Notes: generated from the sequence alone by a model not told the origin. A DNA stretch of 64,000 nucleotides from Cytophagales bacterium (GCA_013298505.1 JAAFHY010000009.1:1-64000), one strand, 5' to 3'; positions 31,054 through 37,773 are shown, counted from the stretch's first letter. A program made the numbers and translations.

Positions 31054-31419
31054 ATGAGTATGGCTAAAAAATCAAATTCGTCTAATCAAGCTAATGAACT
31101 GCTGCTGGAGGAGCGTTGTGTTTTAAATAAAGTATTAAAGTTGACTGGCAAGAGATGGCTTGCCGAGATACTATTGTTGATCGAGGCCGATGTCAATCGA
31201 TTCTCTCAACTAAAGGCTAATCTCAAAGGTATTTCAGATAATGTGCTATCCGCCAATTTAAATGAATTGCTTAAAGCGGAACTACTCACCAAAACGATTT
31301 ACCAACAAGTGCCATTGAAAGTGGAATATCATTTATCCAGCAGTGGAAGGGAATTAATAATTTTATTGCATGGACTATGTAATTGGGGGAAAGAAAACGT
31401 TGAAGTAGATGTTAACTAA
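31054..31419 (+). CDS. HxlR-family winged-helix regulator
   Basis: This 121-residue protein (ATG 31054 or 31060) has CVLNKVLKLTGKRWLAEILLLIEADVNRFSQLKANLKGISDNVLSANLNELLKAELL and a wing PLKVEYHLSSSGRE. The Cys before the helix (ERCVLNK) is near the redox-sensing position of HypR/YodB-type members. It is divergent from phzF and overlaps the downstream HHH gene by 11 bases. Control of the phzF promoter is inferred from position. Confidence 0.9.
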   Translation: MSMAKKSNSSNQANELLLEERCVLNKVLKLTGKRWLAEILLLIEADVNRFSQLKANLKGISDNVLSANLNELLKAELLTKTIYQQVPLKVEYHLSSSGRELIILLHGLCNWGKENVEVDVN

Positions 31420-33344: not shown

Positions 33345-33385
33345 TTGTATATACAACTGTTGTATAAACTTTCTTTGTAACTTTA
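33345..33385 (+). promoter_or_regulatory. TTGTATATACAA operator and promoter of the pirin cluster
   Basis: A perfect 12-base palindrome, TTGTATATACAA (33345-33356), is followed by a partial copy TTGTATAaAC (33360-33369). A -7-like box TAACTTTA is at 33378-33385, 27 bases before the first pirin ATG. The palindrome has the same TTGTAnnTACAA frame as the site before the MarR gene at 883-894. Confidence 0.5.
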
Positions 33386-33412
33386 CTGTTCTAATTACTG
33401 ATCAATAGAAGT

Positions 33413-34270
33413 ATGAATCGGGCACAGTTCTTAAAAGCAGGGTTGTCAAGCGTAGCAGCAGTAGTCACTACCGCTGCTGCCGGACAAGTGCTTTCGAAAG
33501 AAGAAGCTTTTGAAAAACCTATTGGGTTTAATTATTTATCAACAGAAAACACGATAACTATGAACACTGTATTGCACAAGGCGGCCACACGTGGCCATGC
33601 CAACCACGGTTGGTTAGATACCAATCACACATTTAGCTTCGCCCACTACTATGAACCCACCCGCACGCACTTTGGAAAATTGCGTGTGTTGAATGATGAC
33701 TTTGTAGACGGTGGTATGGGCTTTGGCACCCACCCTCATGACAACATGGAGATTATTTCTATTCCTCTCGCTGGTGATTTGGAACACAAAGACAGCATGG
33801 GCAATTTAGCCGTCATTAAGCAAAATGACGTACAGATCATGAGTGCCGGCACGGGGATTTATCATAGTGAGTACAATAAGAACAAAGATTCAAAAGTGAA
33901 TTTCTTACAGATTTGGGTTTTCCCCAAGCAACGAGATATCACCCCGCGCTACGATCAAATCACTTTCAAACCCGAAGACCGCGTAAATAAATTGCAGCAA
34001 ATCGTAAGTCCGTCCAAAACAGACGAAGGCGTTTGGATTAATCAAGATGCGTGGTTTCACTTAGGCAATTTGAAAAAAGATTTCTCGACAGAATATATCA
34101 TCAAGCAAAAAGGCAATGGTGTATATGCTTTTGTACTAGAAGGGGAAGTAACTGTCAATGGCCAGAAATTAGATAAGCGTGATGGCTACGGAGTGTGGGA
34201 CGTGGAAAAGTTTAACATACTTGCCGATACAGATACGGAGGTGCTGTTAATGGAAGTACCAATGCAATGA
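33413..34270 (+). CDS. Pirin-family bicupin with N-terminal signal-like segment
   Basis: This 285-residue protein has a short N-terminal signal-like stretch (MNRAQFLKAGLSSVAAVVTTAAAG, lacking a twin arginine). The pirin core begins at residue 50 (MNTVLHKA, ATG 33560 is an alternative cytoplasmic start). Metal-binding cupin motifs are HPHDNMEIISIPLAGDLEHKDS and the later HSEYN. Pirins of the YhhW type cleave quercetin-like flavonols, and others act as redox-sensing regulators. It is the first gene of the redox cluster and follows the palindromic operator. Confidence 0.92.
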   Translation: MNRAQFLKAGLSSVAAVVTTAAAGQVLSKEEAFEKPIGFNYLSTENTITMNTVLHKAATRGHANHGWLDTNHTFSFAHYYEPTRTHFGKLRVLNDDFVDGGMGFGTHPHDNMEIISIPLAGDLEHKDSMGNLAVIKQNDVQIMSAGTGIYHSEYNKNKDSKVNFLQIWVFPKQRDITPRYDQITFKPEDRVNKLQQIVSPSKTDEGVWINQDAWFHLGNLKKDFSTEYIIKQKGNGVYAFVLEGEVTVNGQKLDKRDGYGVWDVEKFNILADTDTEVLLMEVPMQ

Positions 34271-34279
34271 TAGGTCAAT

Positions 34280-34321
34280 AGTCGATGGTCCATAGTAACT
34301 ATCGACTATGAACTATCGACT
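34280..34321. repeat. Palindromic repeat (AGTCGATnGTCCATAGT type)
   Basis: AGTCGATGGTCCATAGT (34280-34296) and ACTATGAACTATCGACT (34305-34321) are inverted copies with two mismatches around an 8-base loop. It fills the gap between the first pirin and the receiver-like gene. It could reduce or punctuate read-through in the cluster. Confidence 0.75.
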
Positions 34322-34335
34322 TTAACTTACGAAAT

Positions 34336-34632
34336 ATGGTAAACATCCTCGTCATAGGCCGTCACGTACAAATCATGGAGACTATTTTGCGCTTGATTAA
34401 TAGTCAGCCAAGGTGGACGGCTGAAGGCGCTTTGACAGATGAAGACGCGTTAGTCAAGTTCAATGGTGTTGACTTCAATCTGGTGCTAATCGGTGGCGGG
34501 GTCGAAGAATCTTCGGAAGCGAGACTAAAAACGGAATTTGAAAAGAGAAACCCACAAATAAAAATGATAAGACACTATGGAGGTGGAAGCGGGTTGTTGT
34601 TTAACGAAATTGAAGAAGCAATTGCAAAATAG
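34336..34632 (+). CDS. Small receiver-like protein lacking the phospho-acceptor Asp
   Basis: This 98-residue protein has a CheY-like alternating pattern, MVNILVIGRHVQIMETILRLINSQPRW at the N-terminus, then FNLVLIGGGVEESSEARL where a receiver would have VLLDxxMP. The usual acidic pair after beta-1 (here GRH) and the Asp (here GGG) are absent. It is too short for a full receiver. It lies between two pirin genes, suggesting a function tied to the redox cluster rather than to a histidine kinase. Confidence 0.6.
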   Translation: MVNILVIGRHVQIMETILRLINSQPRWTAEGALTDEDALVKFNGVDFNLVLIGGGVEESSEARLKTEFEKRNPQIKMIRHYGGGSGLLFNEIEEAIAK

Positions 34633-34712
34633 TTGGTCGATGTCCGTTAGTAGTTGTTCGTAAAATAGGTAACGAAACTATCAAACAACGATCAACGAAC
34701 AACCAACAACGA
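34631..34712. repeat. Imperfect palindromic repeat (GTTGTTCGT/ACGAACAAC type), copy 1
   Basis: A left arm with GTCGATG and AGTTGTTCGT is matched by a right arm ATCAACGAACAACCAAC. The arms are imperfect but clearly complementary. A related sequence recurs at 37064-37154 and, as a single arm, at about 49111-49141. It overlaps the stop region of the receiver-like gene by one base. Confidence 0.6.
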
Positions 34713-34719
34713 ATTTATT

Positions 34720-35589
34720 ATGAAAAACAGAACAGTAGCCCGATTACTTTACGCGCACCAAGTCGATATGGGTGGCATGCCCATTCGTCAGCCGTTGCCA
34801 ACACAACAGGTAGCACAGATAGACCCTTTCTTACTGTTGCATCATGCAAACATAAAAGCGCCAACACATATCGACCCAGACCACGCTGGTGTTGGGCCAC
34901 ATCCACATCGCGGATTTTCACCTGTTACTTTTATTTTTCAAGGCGGTGTTCATCATCGCGATAGTCGAGGGAATGATAGTGTGATCTATGCGGGCGGTGC
35001 ACAGTGGATGAACGCGGGCATGGGAATTATTCACAGCGAGCGCCCACCTCGCGATATTCATGAAATTGGCGGGCGGCAGGAAATTATTCAGTTGTGGATC
35101 AATACCCCAGCAAAAAGTAAAATGGATCAGCCAATGTATTTTCCTTTAAATGCTGAGGAGGCTCCGAAAATTAAAACTGTTGATTTGCGAGTAACCGGAA
35201 AAGTGTTTGCTGGGGAATTACTGGATGTGAAAGGACCTATTCCTTCACAAGCTGTTGTCAATGCTGCTACTTTTGAAATCAAACAAGGTGGAAAAGTGTC
35301 CATTCCTATTCCAGTTAATCACACTGCTTTCATTTATTTACTGGATGGCAAATTGACAATAGACGGCTTTGGGTTGGTAGAAGGCTTACACATTGTTCAC
35401 TTTAAAAATGACGGAGAAGGGATTACCTTCGAAGGATTGGAAGACACTCGAGTGCTCTTTTTAACAGGTGAGCCACTAAATGAAACCGTGGTATCACATG
35501 GCCCATTTGTGATGAATAACCAAACCCAAATCATGGAGGCCATGCGTGATTATCAGATGGGGAAAATGGGAATACTCATTGAAGACTAA
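34720..35589 (+). CDS. Pirin-family bicupin, second copy
   Basis: This 289-residue cytoplasmic protein has metal-binding cupin motifs GPHPHRGFSPVTFIFQGGVHHRDS and IHSERPP, followed by a second cupin (FIYLLDGKLTIDG). It is a distinct subtype from the first pirin, with an N-terminal extension (MGGMPIRQPLPTQQVAQIDPFLLLHH) and a C-terminal FVMNNQTQIMEAMRDYQMGKMG typical of the longer branch. Two different pirins in one cluster suggest a quinone/flavonoid or redox-stress role (inference). Confidence 0.93.
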   Translation: MKNRTVARLLYAHQVDMGGMPIRQPLPTQQVAQIDPFLLLHHANIKAPTHIDPDHAGVGPHPHRGFSPVTFIFQGGVHHRDSRGNDSVIYAGGAQWMNAGMGIIHSERPPRDIHEIGGRQEIIQLWINTPAKSKMDQPMYFPLNAEEAPKIKTVDLRVTGKVFAGELLDVKGPIPSQAVVNAATFEIKQGGKVSIPIPVNHTAFIYLLDGKLTIDGFGLVEGLHIVHFKNDGEGITFEGLEDTRVLFLTGEPLNETVVSHGPFVMNNQTQIMEAMRDYQMGKMGILIED

Positions 35590-35645
35590 TTCTATCGTTT
35601 ATTAAATCATGATCATCGCTTAAACCAAACCCAAAAAACAAAAAT

Positions 35646-36044
35646 ATGGAAACACAAAAACCAACCATCGTACAAGCTCTGAAAGGAGGTGCCATTGCCG
35701 GATTAATAGGAGCCGGACTAAATAATATCTGGAGTTTAATTGCCGCTGCCTTGGGCGCTACCATTCCGCCCGGTTTTGCCATCGCAGTGACGTTATCTTC
35801 TTTCGTTCCAGTGCTTATTGGAGCACTTATTTTTTTCTTATTGGTTCGCTACGCCCCTAAGGGATTGACGATTTGGTATGCTCTTTCTATTGCATTCACT
35901 TTGCTGAGCTTTTTTCCGGTGTTTAATACACCCCAATTGCCCGATGGCACGTTGCTAGACTCCACCTTCCCATTGTTAGCGGGGCCGATGCACGCCATCT
36001 CTGGATTTTTGGCAGCTTGGGGAATTCCCAAGTGGACTCGTTGA
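35646..36044 (+). CDS. Four-helix membrane protein (DUF6069-like)
   Basis: This 132-residue integral membrane protein has four hydrophobic segments: GGAIAGLIGAGLNNIWSLIA, FVPVLIGALIFFLLV, WYALSIAFTLLSFFPVF and PLLAGPMHAISGFLAAWG. The arrangement resembles DUF6069 proteins. No catalytic residues are evident. It lies 56 bases after pirin 2 and 49 bases before the nitroreductase, in the same orientation. Confidence 0.7.
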   Translation: METQKPTIVQALKGGAIAGLIGAGLNNIWSLIAAALGATIPPGFAIAVTLSSFVPVLIGALIFFLLVRYAPKGLTIWYALSIAFTLLSFFPVFNTPQLPDGTLLDSTFPLLAGPMHAISGFLAAWGIPKWTR

Positions 36045-36093
36045 ACTGTTCTTCCAAAATCTTGTTATCATTGGCTGAACCTTATATAACTTT

Positions 36094-36690
36094 ATGGAAA
36101 CCGAACTAATCATGCAGAAATCATCTATTATTGAGCAACCACTGGTAGACGTTATCTCACATCGAAAGAGCAGTCGGGCGTATGCAGAGACTTCGATAGA
36201 ACCAGAAAAAATTCAAGCACTCTTTGAAGCCGCTCGTTGGGCACCCTCCAGTAATAATGAGCAGCCCTGGGCCTACATTTATGCTACCAAAGATCAACCA
36301 GAACTTTGGGGTAAATTATTTGATACGCTCATGGACGGAAATAAGATCTGGGCGGAGCGTGCCCCTCTCTTAATATTGTCCATGATCCGCAAGAATTTTA
36401 TCAGCAACGGAAAACCAAACCCTTCTGCAAAATATGATCTTGGCTCAGCTAACGGATTTCTTTCCTTGCAAGCTACACACCTTGGTTTAAACGTTCACCA
36501 AATGGGAGGCTTCGATCGCGAAAAAGCAAAATTGAATTTGAACATACCGGATACCCATGAAGCAGCGGTGATATTAGCCATCGGCTATTTGGGTGATGCC
36601 TCGTTGCTGCCTGATTTCTTACAGGAGCGTGAAGTAGCTCCGCGGTCACGTTACACACAAGAGTCGTTTGTCATGAACAACACTTTCTGA
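36094..36690 (+). CDS. Nitroreductase-family flavoenzyme
   Basis: The product is 198 residues (ATG 36094; MQKSSII at 36112 is an alternative). FMN-binding segments are visible: ISHRKSSRAYAE at the start, AARWAPSSNNEQPWAYIYA, and LQATHLGLNVHQMGGFDREK. Family members reduce nitroaromatics, quinones or enals with NAD(P)H. The OsmC gene follows after 1 base, so the two are translationally coupled. Confidence 0.93.
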   Translation: METELIMQKSSIIEQPLVDVISHRKSSRAYAETSIEPEKIQALFEAARWAPSSNNEQPWAYIYATKDQPELWGKLFDTLMDGNKIWAERAPLLILSMIRKNFISNGKPNPSAKYDLGSANGFLSLQATHLGLNVHQMGGFDREKAKLNLNIPDTHEAAVILAIGYLGDASLLPDFLQEREVAPRSRYTQESFVMNNTF

Positions 36691-36691
36691 T

Positions 36692-37078
36692 ATGGTTTCT
36701 GCCATTATCGGAATGGATCATTTTCGCACCGAGATAACGGTGGGTGGAAAAATGGTGATTGCCGATGAACCGGTGGAATTAGATGGCACCAATCAAGGGC
36801 TTGCACCCGGAGAGTTTTTGCTAATCTCACTTGCCTCGTGCACCGCCATTACGCTGCGCATGTATGCCGATCAAAAAAAATGGCCCGTAGAAAAAATTAA
36901 GGTGGAAGTGGATTTTGAAAAAGTTGATGATAAAACTATTTTTAAACGAGAGCTTCAATTGATAGGTGACTTAACGGAGGAGCAGCGGACACGTTTACTA
37001 CAAATTGCCAACGCATGCCCGGTACATAAAACGTTGACGAATCCGATTGAAGTACAAACAAAATTGGTTGTTGGTTGA
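36692..37078 (+). CDS. OsmC/Ohr-family peroxiredoxin-like protein
   Basis: This 128-residue protein has the two active cysteines of OsmC: SLASCTAITLRMYA and NACPVHKTLTNP. The first is expected to reduce organic hydroperoxides and the second to resolve. The last codons (KLVVG stop) are written in the left arm of the downstream palindromic repeat. It is coupled to the nitroreductase (1-base gap), supporting a joint role in electrophile and peroxide detoxification. Confidence 0.93.
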   Translation: MVSAIIGMDHFRTEITVGGKMVIADEPVELDGTNQGLAPGEFLLISLASCTAITLRMYADQKKWPVEKIKVEVDFEKVDDKTIFKRELQLIGDLTEEQRTRLLQIANACPVHKTLTNPIEVQTKLVVG

Positions 37079-37154
37079 TCGTTATTCGATGTTTGTAAAT
37101 ACCATGAAACAAACCAAACGACACACGACCAACCATTAACCAACAACGAACAAC
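37064..37154. repeat. Imperfect palindromic repeat (TTGGTTGTTGGTTG type), copy 2
   Basis: The left arm TTGGTTGTTGGTTGATCGTT begins within the osmC 3' end. The right arm CCAACCATTAACCAACAACGAACAACG ends at the base before the next ATG. The element thus fills the whole gap between two genes. Same family as 34631-34712. Confidence 0.65.
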
Positions 37155-37155
37155 G

Positions 37156-37584
37156 ATGAAAGAAATCACCAAAAAATACACCAACGGAGAGGTCACCATC
37201 GTGTGGAAGCCAGCGATGTGCATTCATTCAGCCATTTGTTTTAACGGACTAGGCGATGTATTTCATCCGCAAGAATTGCCATGGATTACACCCGAAAAAT
37301 CGACTACTGATAAAATCATCAATCAAATAAAAAAATGCCCTTCAGGTGCGCTGAGTTATTACCTCAATCGGGATGCAGGCAACGAAGAAGTAAAAGTGGG
37401 GCCCGAGACGATTGTAGAAACGACACCCAACGGCCCATTGATGGTGTATGGAAATGTAACCATCAAAGATTCAAAAGGCAATCTCACCAAAAAGAATAAT
37501 GCCACGGCTTTCTGCCGATGTGGTGCTTCCTCCAACAAGCCGTTTTGCGATGGCAGTCATAAGAAGATTGGGTTTGAGGGGTGA
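37156..37584 (+). CDS. Fusion of DUF1271-type mono-cluster ferredoxin and CDGSH iron-sulfur domain
   Basis: Residues 1-75 of this 142-residue protein follow the Fer4_19/DUF1271 pattern, GEVTIVWKPAMCIHSAICFNGLGDVF with later KKCPSGALSYY (three Cys for a 3Fe-4S or 4Fe-4S cluster). Residues 100-142 carry a CDGSH motif CRCGASSNKPFCDGSHKKIGF (three Cys and one His for a 2Fe-2S cluster). It is a predicted cytoplasmic electron-transfer or redox-sensing protein and closes the redox cluster before the tRNA gene. Confidence 0.93.
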   Translation: MKEITKKYTNGEVTIVWKPAMCIHSAICFNGLGDVFHPQELPWITPEKSTTDKIINQIKKCPSGALSYYLNRDAGNEEVKVGPETIVETTPNGPLMVYGNVTIKDSKGNLTKKNNATAFCRCGASSNKPFCDGSHKKIGFEG

Positions 37585-37623: not shown

Positions 37624-37698
37624 GGGCTGTTAGCTCAGCTGGTTTAGAGCACTACCTCGACAAGGTAGGGGTCACTGGTTCGAATCCAGTACAGCCCA
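37624..37698 (+). tRNA. tRNA-Val (GAC anticodon, C at position 33)
   Basis: The cloverleaf is complete: acceptor GGGCTGT (37624-37630) with ACAGCCC (37691-37697), D-arm GCTC...GAGC, anticodon stem CTACC/GGTAG, variable region GGGTC, T-arm ACTGG-TTCGAAT-CCAGT, discriminator A. CCA is not encoded. The anticodon loop reads TCGACAA, so anticodon GAC (Val) is preceded by C33 instead of the nearly invariant U33. A TAccTTGC promoter box lies at 37605-37612. Confidence 0.92.
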
Positions 37699-37773
37699 CA
37701 AAAAATTCTTACCTTTCTTTCACGTATTATTCATATTTATATCAGATACTAATTTTGCTAGCAAAGTAAATCT

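Follow-up and report, generated by a model that had tools for sequence, protein, structure and literature searches.

A conserved pirin operon of Cytophagales with a truncated receiver-like protein and a candidate MarR-type operator

Seven co-directional genes and their operator

We analyzed a 64,000-nucleotide stretch of a Cytophagales bacterium (GCA_013298505.1, JAAFHY010000009.1:1-64000; hereafter the window), which is part of a 3.96-Mb assembly having Cytophagales metagenome assemblies as its closest relatives, with a focus on two pirin genes and the five genes that accompany them (33413–37584) downstream of a palindromic element. An earlier note on this DNA had described them as a redox and electrophile-stress cluster of seven co-directional genes. 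All seven open reading frames (ORFs) were confirmed in their place and on the plus strand, which also carries the operator, the intergenic hairpin and the MarR gene with its promoter site described below, and every family named in the earlier note was confirmed by Pfam, except for that of the receiver-like protein.

The first gene, pirA (33413–34270), encodes a YhhW-type, quercetinase-like pirin with a leader-like N-terminus (Pfam Pirin, 2.7e-31; Pirin_C_2, 5.7e-26), the closest PDB entries being 6uts and 1tq5 (about 1e-64), and pirB (34720–35589) encodes a pirin of the YhaK/human-pirin type (Pfam Pirin and Pirin_C; PDB 6d0p, 1e-53). Bicupin domains that align with those of solved pirins are present in both, and so are the metal-site segments: THPHDNMEI and GIYHSEYN of PirA align with THPHKDMEI and GIRHSEYN of 6uts, and PirB has HPHRG and IIHSE. 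Between the two lies the gene for the receiver-like protein (34336–34632). Downstream of pirB are the genes for a four-helix membrane protein of DUF6069 (35646–36044; assigned by Pfam, with no solved relative by fold), a nitroreductase-family FMN oxidoreductase (36094–36690; PF00881, 4.6e-17; PDB 2fre, an NAD(P)H-flavin oxidoreductase, 1.4e-31), an OsmC-like protein (36692–37078; PF02566, 4.7e-19) and a fusion of a divergent 4Fe-4S domain, Fer4_19, with a 2Fe-2S CDGSH domain (37156–37584; Pfam). A reading of the DUF6069 protein as DoxX-like, by analogy with YqjF, was dropped, as the fold search gave no match.

The gene order was wholly or partly kept in about 10 related assemblies, in line with the unit that the earlier note had proposed. 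All seven genes were found in identical order at L028, L029, L030, L031, L033 and L034, although pirA is cut by the contig edge in L034, and pirB and the OsmC gene are fragmented in L033, a locus that is partly broken or badly assembled. At L027, L037, L032 and L026, only a portion is visible on the contig or the tail is lost. In a genome of the same genus (L035/L038), pirB is missing and the DUF6069 gene is reduced to a remnant, and G019 (L075) retains pirA, pirB and the nitroreductase, OsmC and CDGSH genes without those for the receiver and DUF6069. Thus, the order is kept while the parts vary, indicating a real unit of modular make-up.

The palindrome TTGTATATACAA, which the earlier note had placed at the cluster, is present exactly at 33345–33356 but is only the left part of a larger, 22-bp element, TTGTATATACAACTGTTGTATA (33345–33366). 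This operator consists of three half-sites, TTGTAT-ATACAA-CTG-TTGTAT (consensus, TTGTAT-ATACAA-CNR-TTGTAT), which form two overlapping palindromes (33345–33356 and 33351–33365). The element, the palindrome TTGTATATACAA and the best-conserved part of the operator, the 15-mer ATACAAC-NR-TTGTAT, each occur once in the genome. The element or a slight variant of it is conserved 5' of pirA at L026, L029, L030–L033, L035/L038, L037, L075 and L129. When 242 genomes of the order were scanned with the 21-bp form, four perfect matches were obtained (G000, G173, G019 and G078), all directly upstream of pirA, together with nine more copies with one mismatch in eight genomes, compared with four for the reversed-pattern control. 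Because all four perfect copies precede pirA orthologues, the operator and its 15-mer are not products of chance. Further sites in the same genome that match ATACAA-N3-TTGTAT with one mismatch (16, versus 17 in the control) were mostly intragenic and were set aside. Taken together, these comparisons support the prediction that the seven genes form a single unit read in one direction, in which both the gene order and the operator are conserved.

Several other features were observed in and around the operon. An alternative start of pirA is present at 33560 (MNTVLHKA...), and the leader that precedes it (33413–33559) has, in several genomes, the form M[NKE]R..F[LI]K; it includes a hydrophobic segment and, ahead of the second start, a conserved peptide resembling GFNH[LI]P. 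The leader is similar to an imperfect Tat signal and varies among relatives: G019 and G078 do not have it, and in L027–L029 it is either missing or broken. Some pirins might be exported. The intergenic region between pirA and the receiver gene (34271–34335) is a strong, single-copy hairpin (folding z, -4.4), for which a modulating effect on the transcript may be possible as a speculation; in L026 and L028, a similar stretch belongs to the receiver ORF, extending it at the N-terminus. Two other intergenic regions, 34633–34719 and 37079–37155 (folding z, -1.1 and -3.3, respectively), carry repeats of a 7-base unit (ACGAACAACCAACAACGA), some of which are inverted pairs forming hairpins; this repeat gave 54 matches genome-wide, compared with one in the control. 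A tRNA-like sequence (GGGCTGTTAGCTCAGCTGG...) lies at 37628–37699, immediately 3' of the operon.

The receiver-like protein and its pairing with pirins

AlphaFold2 prediction with 13 relatives gave a confident fold of four beta-alpha units (pLDDT 92.2) for the protein encoded at 34336–34632, and Foldseek matched this fold to receivers and pseudo-receivers (3q15_D; TM 0.80, rmsd 2.5). A profile search against the PDB also placed CheY-like proteins first, with weak E-values, and the Pfam Response_reg model did not match the window protein at all, its best E-value among 18 relatives being 0.005. Compared with the (beta-alpha)5 topology of receivers, the protein is truncated: strand 4 runs into the last helix, so that the alpha4-beta5 segment, including the beta5 Lys, is absent. 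None of the canonical receiver residues, namely, the phosphoacceptor Asp, the acidic pair, the switch Thr/Ser and the Lys, is kept in the alignment, in which the acidic pair DD aligns with G8-R9 and the phosphoacceptor Asp with G53. An alternative assignment as a B12-binding protein was dropped, as the fold matches were receivers. Strand 4 ends in RHYGGGSGLL, a loop (consensus, H[YF]GGG[ST]GLL) that hardly varies, if at all, across an alignment of 18 sequences. When 396 genomes of the phylum were searched for the loop at the DNA level, the 15 places found were all receiver genes already known from the protein search. Relatives without the loop were also observed; two of these (L052, 6235–6867; L057, 6021–6641) are about 205 residues long and have a C-terminal extension that the others lack.

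The loop-bearing protein was found to be linked with a particular type of pirin. At 38 of the 49 loop-bearing loci, the strand of the receiver gene also carries a YhhW-type pirin gene no more than 2.5 kb away, in many cases no more than 100 bp away, whereas only one of the 10 loop-less relatives (L121) is near such a pirin. In addition, the two are fused at L123, in the single-contig genome G293, where one ORF encodes the receiver part first and the pirin domains from residue 118. Because neighborhood, motif and fusion agree, the receiver-like protein is most likely a physical partner of PirA. The earlier note had suggested that a non-phosphorylatable receiver between the pirins may regulate them: the loss of every phosphorylation residue and the tie to pirins were confirmed, and the protein has no DNA-binding part, which makes it unlikely to be the transcription factor; any regulation of the pirins by it would be putative.

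It could also be supposed that the protein is a decayed response regulator that is retained by operon inertia without a role for pirins. The loss of all phospho-site residues and of the alpha4-beta5 segment, and the lack of the gene in some relatives of the operon, would fit with this. However, the HYGGGSGLL loop is almost invariant across the 49 loci, which represent several families, the loop-less relatives are not next to a pirin, except for L121, and the fusion retains the loop. A decaying gene is not expected to retain one loop, and we therefore consider decay very unlikely. Returning to partnership with PirA, we tentatively suggest, as an idea that is plausible although short of probable, that in Bacteroidota truncated non-phosphorylatable receivers could serve YhhW-type pirins as a dedicated subunit, in which the loop, located at the terminus of strand 4 that harbors the switch residue in receivers, would sense a quinone, the metal-bound state or another small ligand and gate the pirin, thereby acting as the allosteric subunit of an aromatic-ring dioxygenase.

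Receiver folds without the phosphoacceptor Asp are known as ALR domains (PMC4395418), which share this loss with the protein described here, and Gly is among the substitutions known in ALR domains for this residue. The present protein differs from them in lacking alpha4-beta5, in having the HYGGGSGLL loop, in being stand-alone and paired with a pirin, and in being missed by the Pfam receiver model. Searches of the open-access literature gave no relevant paper on a pirin with a receiver domain or on a pirin/OsmC/nitroreductase operon of Bacteroidota, and the pirin-tied pseudo-receiver appears to be undescribed there.

Candidate regulators of the operator

The earlier note had taken the palindrome to be a regulator site, and this view can be extended by two features that it had missed: the triple half-site, which is of MarR type, and a candidate MarR-family regulator (PF01047) encoded at 918–1367 in the window. 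Orthologues of this MarR, 64–78% identical, are present in five other genomes, and the gene shares a contig with the operator in G000 (32 kb apart) and in G019 (21 kb apart). Its promoter has an operator-like site, TTGTAGCTACAACAATAGTAGC (883–904), and the promoters of the five orthologous genes have TTGTACCTACAATAATAATAGT, TTGTTGTTACAATAATTGTCAT, TCGTATATACAACAATTGTCAG, TTGTATCGACAATAATAGTCGC and TTGTATCTACAACTGTTGAGTT. To evaluate these, we used a scoring matrix built from the pirA operators only and a background of 558 promoter-like segments. As a result, the window site scored 14.8 and four of the six MarR promoters reached at least 14.2, a score attained in the background only by nine pirA operators and by the Old Yellow Enzyme gene beside the L130 MarR (Fisher p of 2e-8 for the enrichment, phylogeny not being corrected for). 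Furthermore, a copy of the operator with one mismatch is located about 60 bp before a MarR gene in G585, the product of which is 45% identical to the window MarR, and the second copy of the palindrome there precedes the adjoining gene, which is the Old Yellow Enzyme gene just named. In G070, a further near copy coincides in part with the promoter of another MarR gene. Because near-identical or similar sites precede MarR genes and a neighboring Old Yellow Enzyme gene, we infer a MarR-family repressor: the predicted control by this class is well supported by the sequence comparisons, and the MarR of 918–1367 is the best candidate for the particular repressor.

Two other groups of regulators were considered and set aside. 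Six MarR paralogues linked with YceI scored below zero on the pirA matrix, and a different motif, TGTTTAAACA, is present before YceI. This palindrome is common to the YceI-MarR pairs of seven genomes (eight loci checked; e.g., L160, about 635–745) and is probably the operator of the YceI-linked MarR. Crp-like regulators, which are found next to the receiver gene at several loci, L042 and L044 among them, have no copy adjoining this operon.

An HxlR-family regulator might act via the palindrome instead, like YodB/CatR/QsrR, as one is encoded in the window at 31054–31419 and such genes lie just upstream of the cluster or divergent from it in relatives: L030, L033, L037 and L075 have one upstream, and G078 has one that diverges directly from pirA. 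PMC6798810 also counts HxlR proteins among the known quinone sensors. However, the palindrome in the promoter of the conserved HxlR gene itself is a different one, about TACTTTCC-N4-GGAAGTA, the window HxlR is merely distantly similar to it, no HxlR match was found in the searched stretches around L026–L029, L031, L032 and L035, and the pirA-type site was found at MarR promoters. HxlR was hence rejected as the operon regulator on account of the other palindrome carried by the orthologues, and we regard it as quite unlikely. In L030, L031, L033, L037 and L075, the divergent HxlR gene belongs to a recurring upstream set with a fusion of DJ-1/PfpI and alpha/beta-hydrolase and an F420-oxidoreductase-like protein.

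A predicted role in quinone and electrophile handling

Both types of pirin are known in Escherichia coli, in which hydroquinone induces both yhaK and yhhW by way of YhaJ, dinitrotoluene is a further inducer of yhaK, and YhhW is a quercetinase (PMC5031710). Nitroreductases, dioxygenases and MhqD esterases under MarR control are described as quinone detoxification in PMC6798810. In other Bacteroidota, the neighbors of the receiver gene include a glyoxalase-fold dioxygenase, an MhqD-like Abhydrolase_2 protein or both (L105, L119 and L122), an MhqD-like esterase (L042), nitroreductases, YceI proteins and Crp-like regulators. This literature, the neighboring genes of the relatives and the Old Yellow Enzyme gene that has the same operator point to the handling of quinones or electrophiles. 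A role with quinones, as suggested in the earlier note, is likely, given also the pirin types and the nitroreductase, and as a prediction it is well supported.

Removal of peroxide, as also suggested there, fared less well. The operon could be considered part of a general response to oxidative stress or organic peroxide, in which an OhrR-like MarR would be the regulator, the OsmC-like protein the chief effector and the pirins redox-responsive accessories. Some OhrR sites are similar AT-rich palindromes. The OsmC-like protein has two cysteines (C50 and C109), as do the Ohr/OsmC peroxidases, the unit holds iron-sulfur proteins, and the mRNAs of Bacteroides fragilis pirins increase with oxygen according to PMC11304471. 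However, the OsmC-like protein scored far below the curated subfamily cut-offs (25.4 bits versus 88.85 for Ohr and 20.6 versus 85.8 for OsmC), the cysteines of the window MarR are, by eye, not conserved in its orthologues, and many pirin-receiver loci are without OsmC, while aromatic-type enzymes recur. A peroxide response is thus unlikely.

We consider it probable that the operon is MarR-repressed and serves for quinone-like or aromatic electrophiles, with the receiver-like protein as a pirin partner. A MarR repressor, most likely that of 918–1367, would occupy the triple half-site upstream of pirA and block the promoter, and a quinone or similar ligand would free it, allowing the seven genes to be transcribed together. 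From their families, the YhhW- and YhaK-type pirins may carry out oxidative cleavage or conversion of an aromatic compound, the nitroreductase may reduce quinones or nitro compounds, and the OsmC-like, iron-sulfur and membrane proteins may deal with redox by-products or electron supply. The receiver-like protein would bind the YhhW-type pirin, its loop contacting the pirin or a small ligand and tuning activity or assembly. Several observations weigh against this account. The close relatives L027 and L028 keep the genes, yet neither ATACAA nor TTGTAT was found in the searched stretch upstream of pirA. Eleven loop-bearing receivers, namely, the ten HFGGGSGLL loci of one genus (g99) and L105, have no pirin nearby, and L075 and L129 have the operator and pirins without a receiver, indicating that the unit can do without the receiver. 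Regarding the regulator, several positions distinguish the operator-like sites of the window-type MarR genes from the pirA operator, two of the six MarR orthologues scored just 5.6–6.4, and the operon has no regulator gene as a conserved neighbor.

The operon can be compared with three known systems. It resembles the MhqR and YodB-QsrR regulons of Bacillus and Staphylococcus in its nitroreductase and presumed MarR-type control, and the pairing of the receiver gene in relatives with a glyoxalase-fold dioxygenase and an MhqD-like phospholipase/carboxylesterase is reminiscent of the MhqR regulon. It differs in that no gene for a ring-cleavage dioxygenase (MhqO) or carboxylesterase (MhqD) is within the window operon, the MhqR operator is TATCTCGAA-aTCGAaATA, and pirins and a pseudo-receiver are not named as parts of those regulons in the available part of the source (PMC6798810). 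The YhaJ regulon (yhaK, yhhW, yqjF and ygiD; PMC5031710) likewise has both pirin types under one hydroquinone-responsive regulator. YhaJ is, however, a LysR-type regulator with scattered targets and a TCA-N7-TGA site, whereas the pirins are here in a single operon with a MarR-type site, TTGTATATACAACTGTTGTATA, for which the candidates were MarR or HxlR. Pir1 and Pir2 of B. fragilis are also Bacteroidota pirins, with a response to oxygen and iron and with partner enzymes to which they bind; the partners given in PMC11304471 are PFOR and dehydrogenases, and neither a receiver partner nor such an operon is mentioned in the text searched. The operon is probably a variant of the quinone-detoxification kind.

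The presence of the operator and the candidate repressor in one window would make the idea of a quinone response testable by a single binding experiment. A partner that is conserved, genetically tied and once fused may offer a direct route to testing whether bacterial pirins act as enzymes or as transcription cofactors, and the receiver-like protein would provide an example of the receiver fold reused without phosphorylation.

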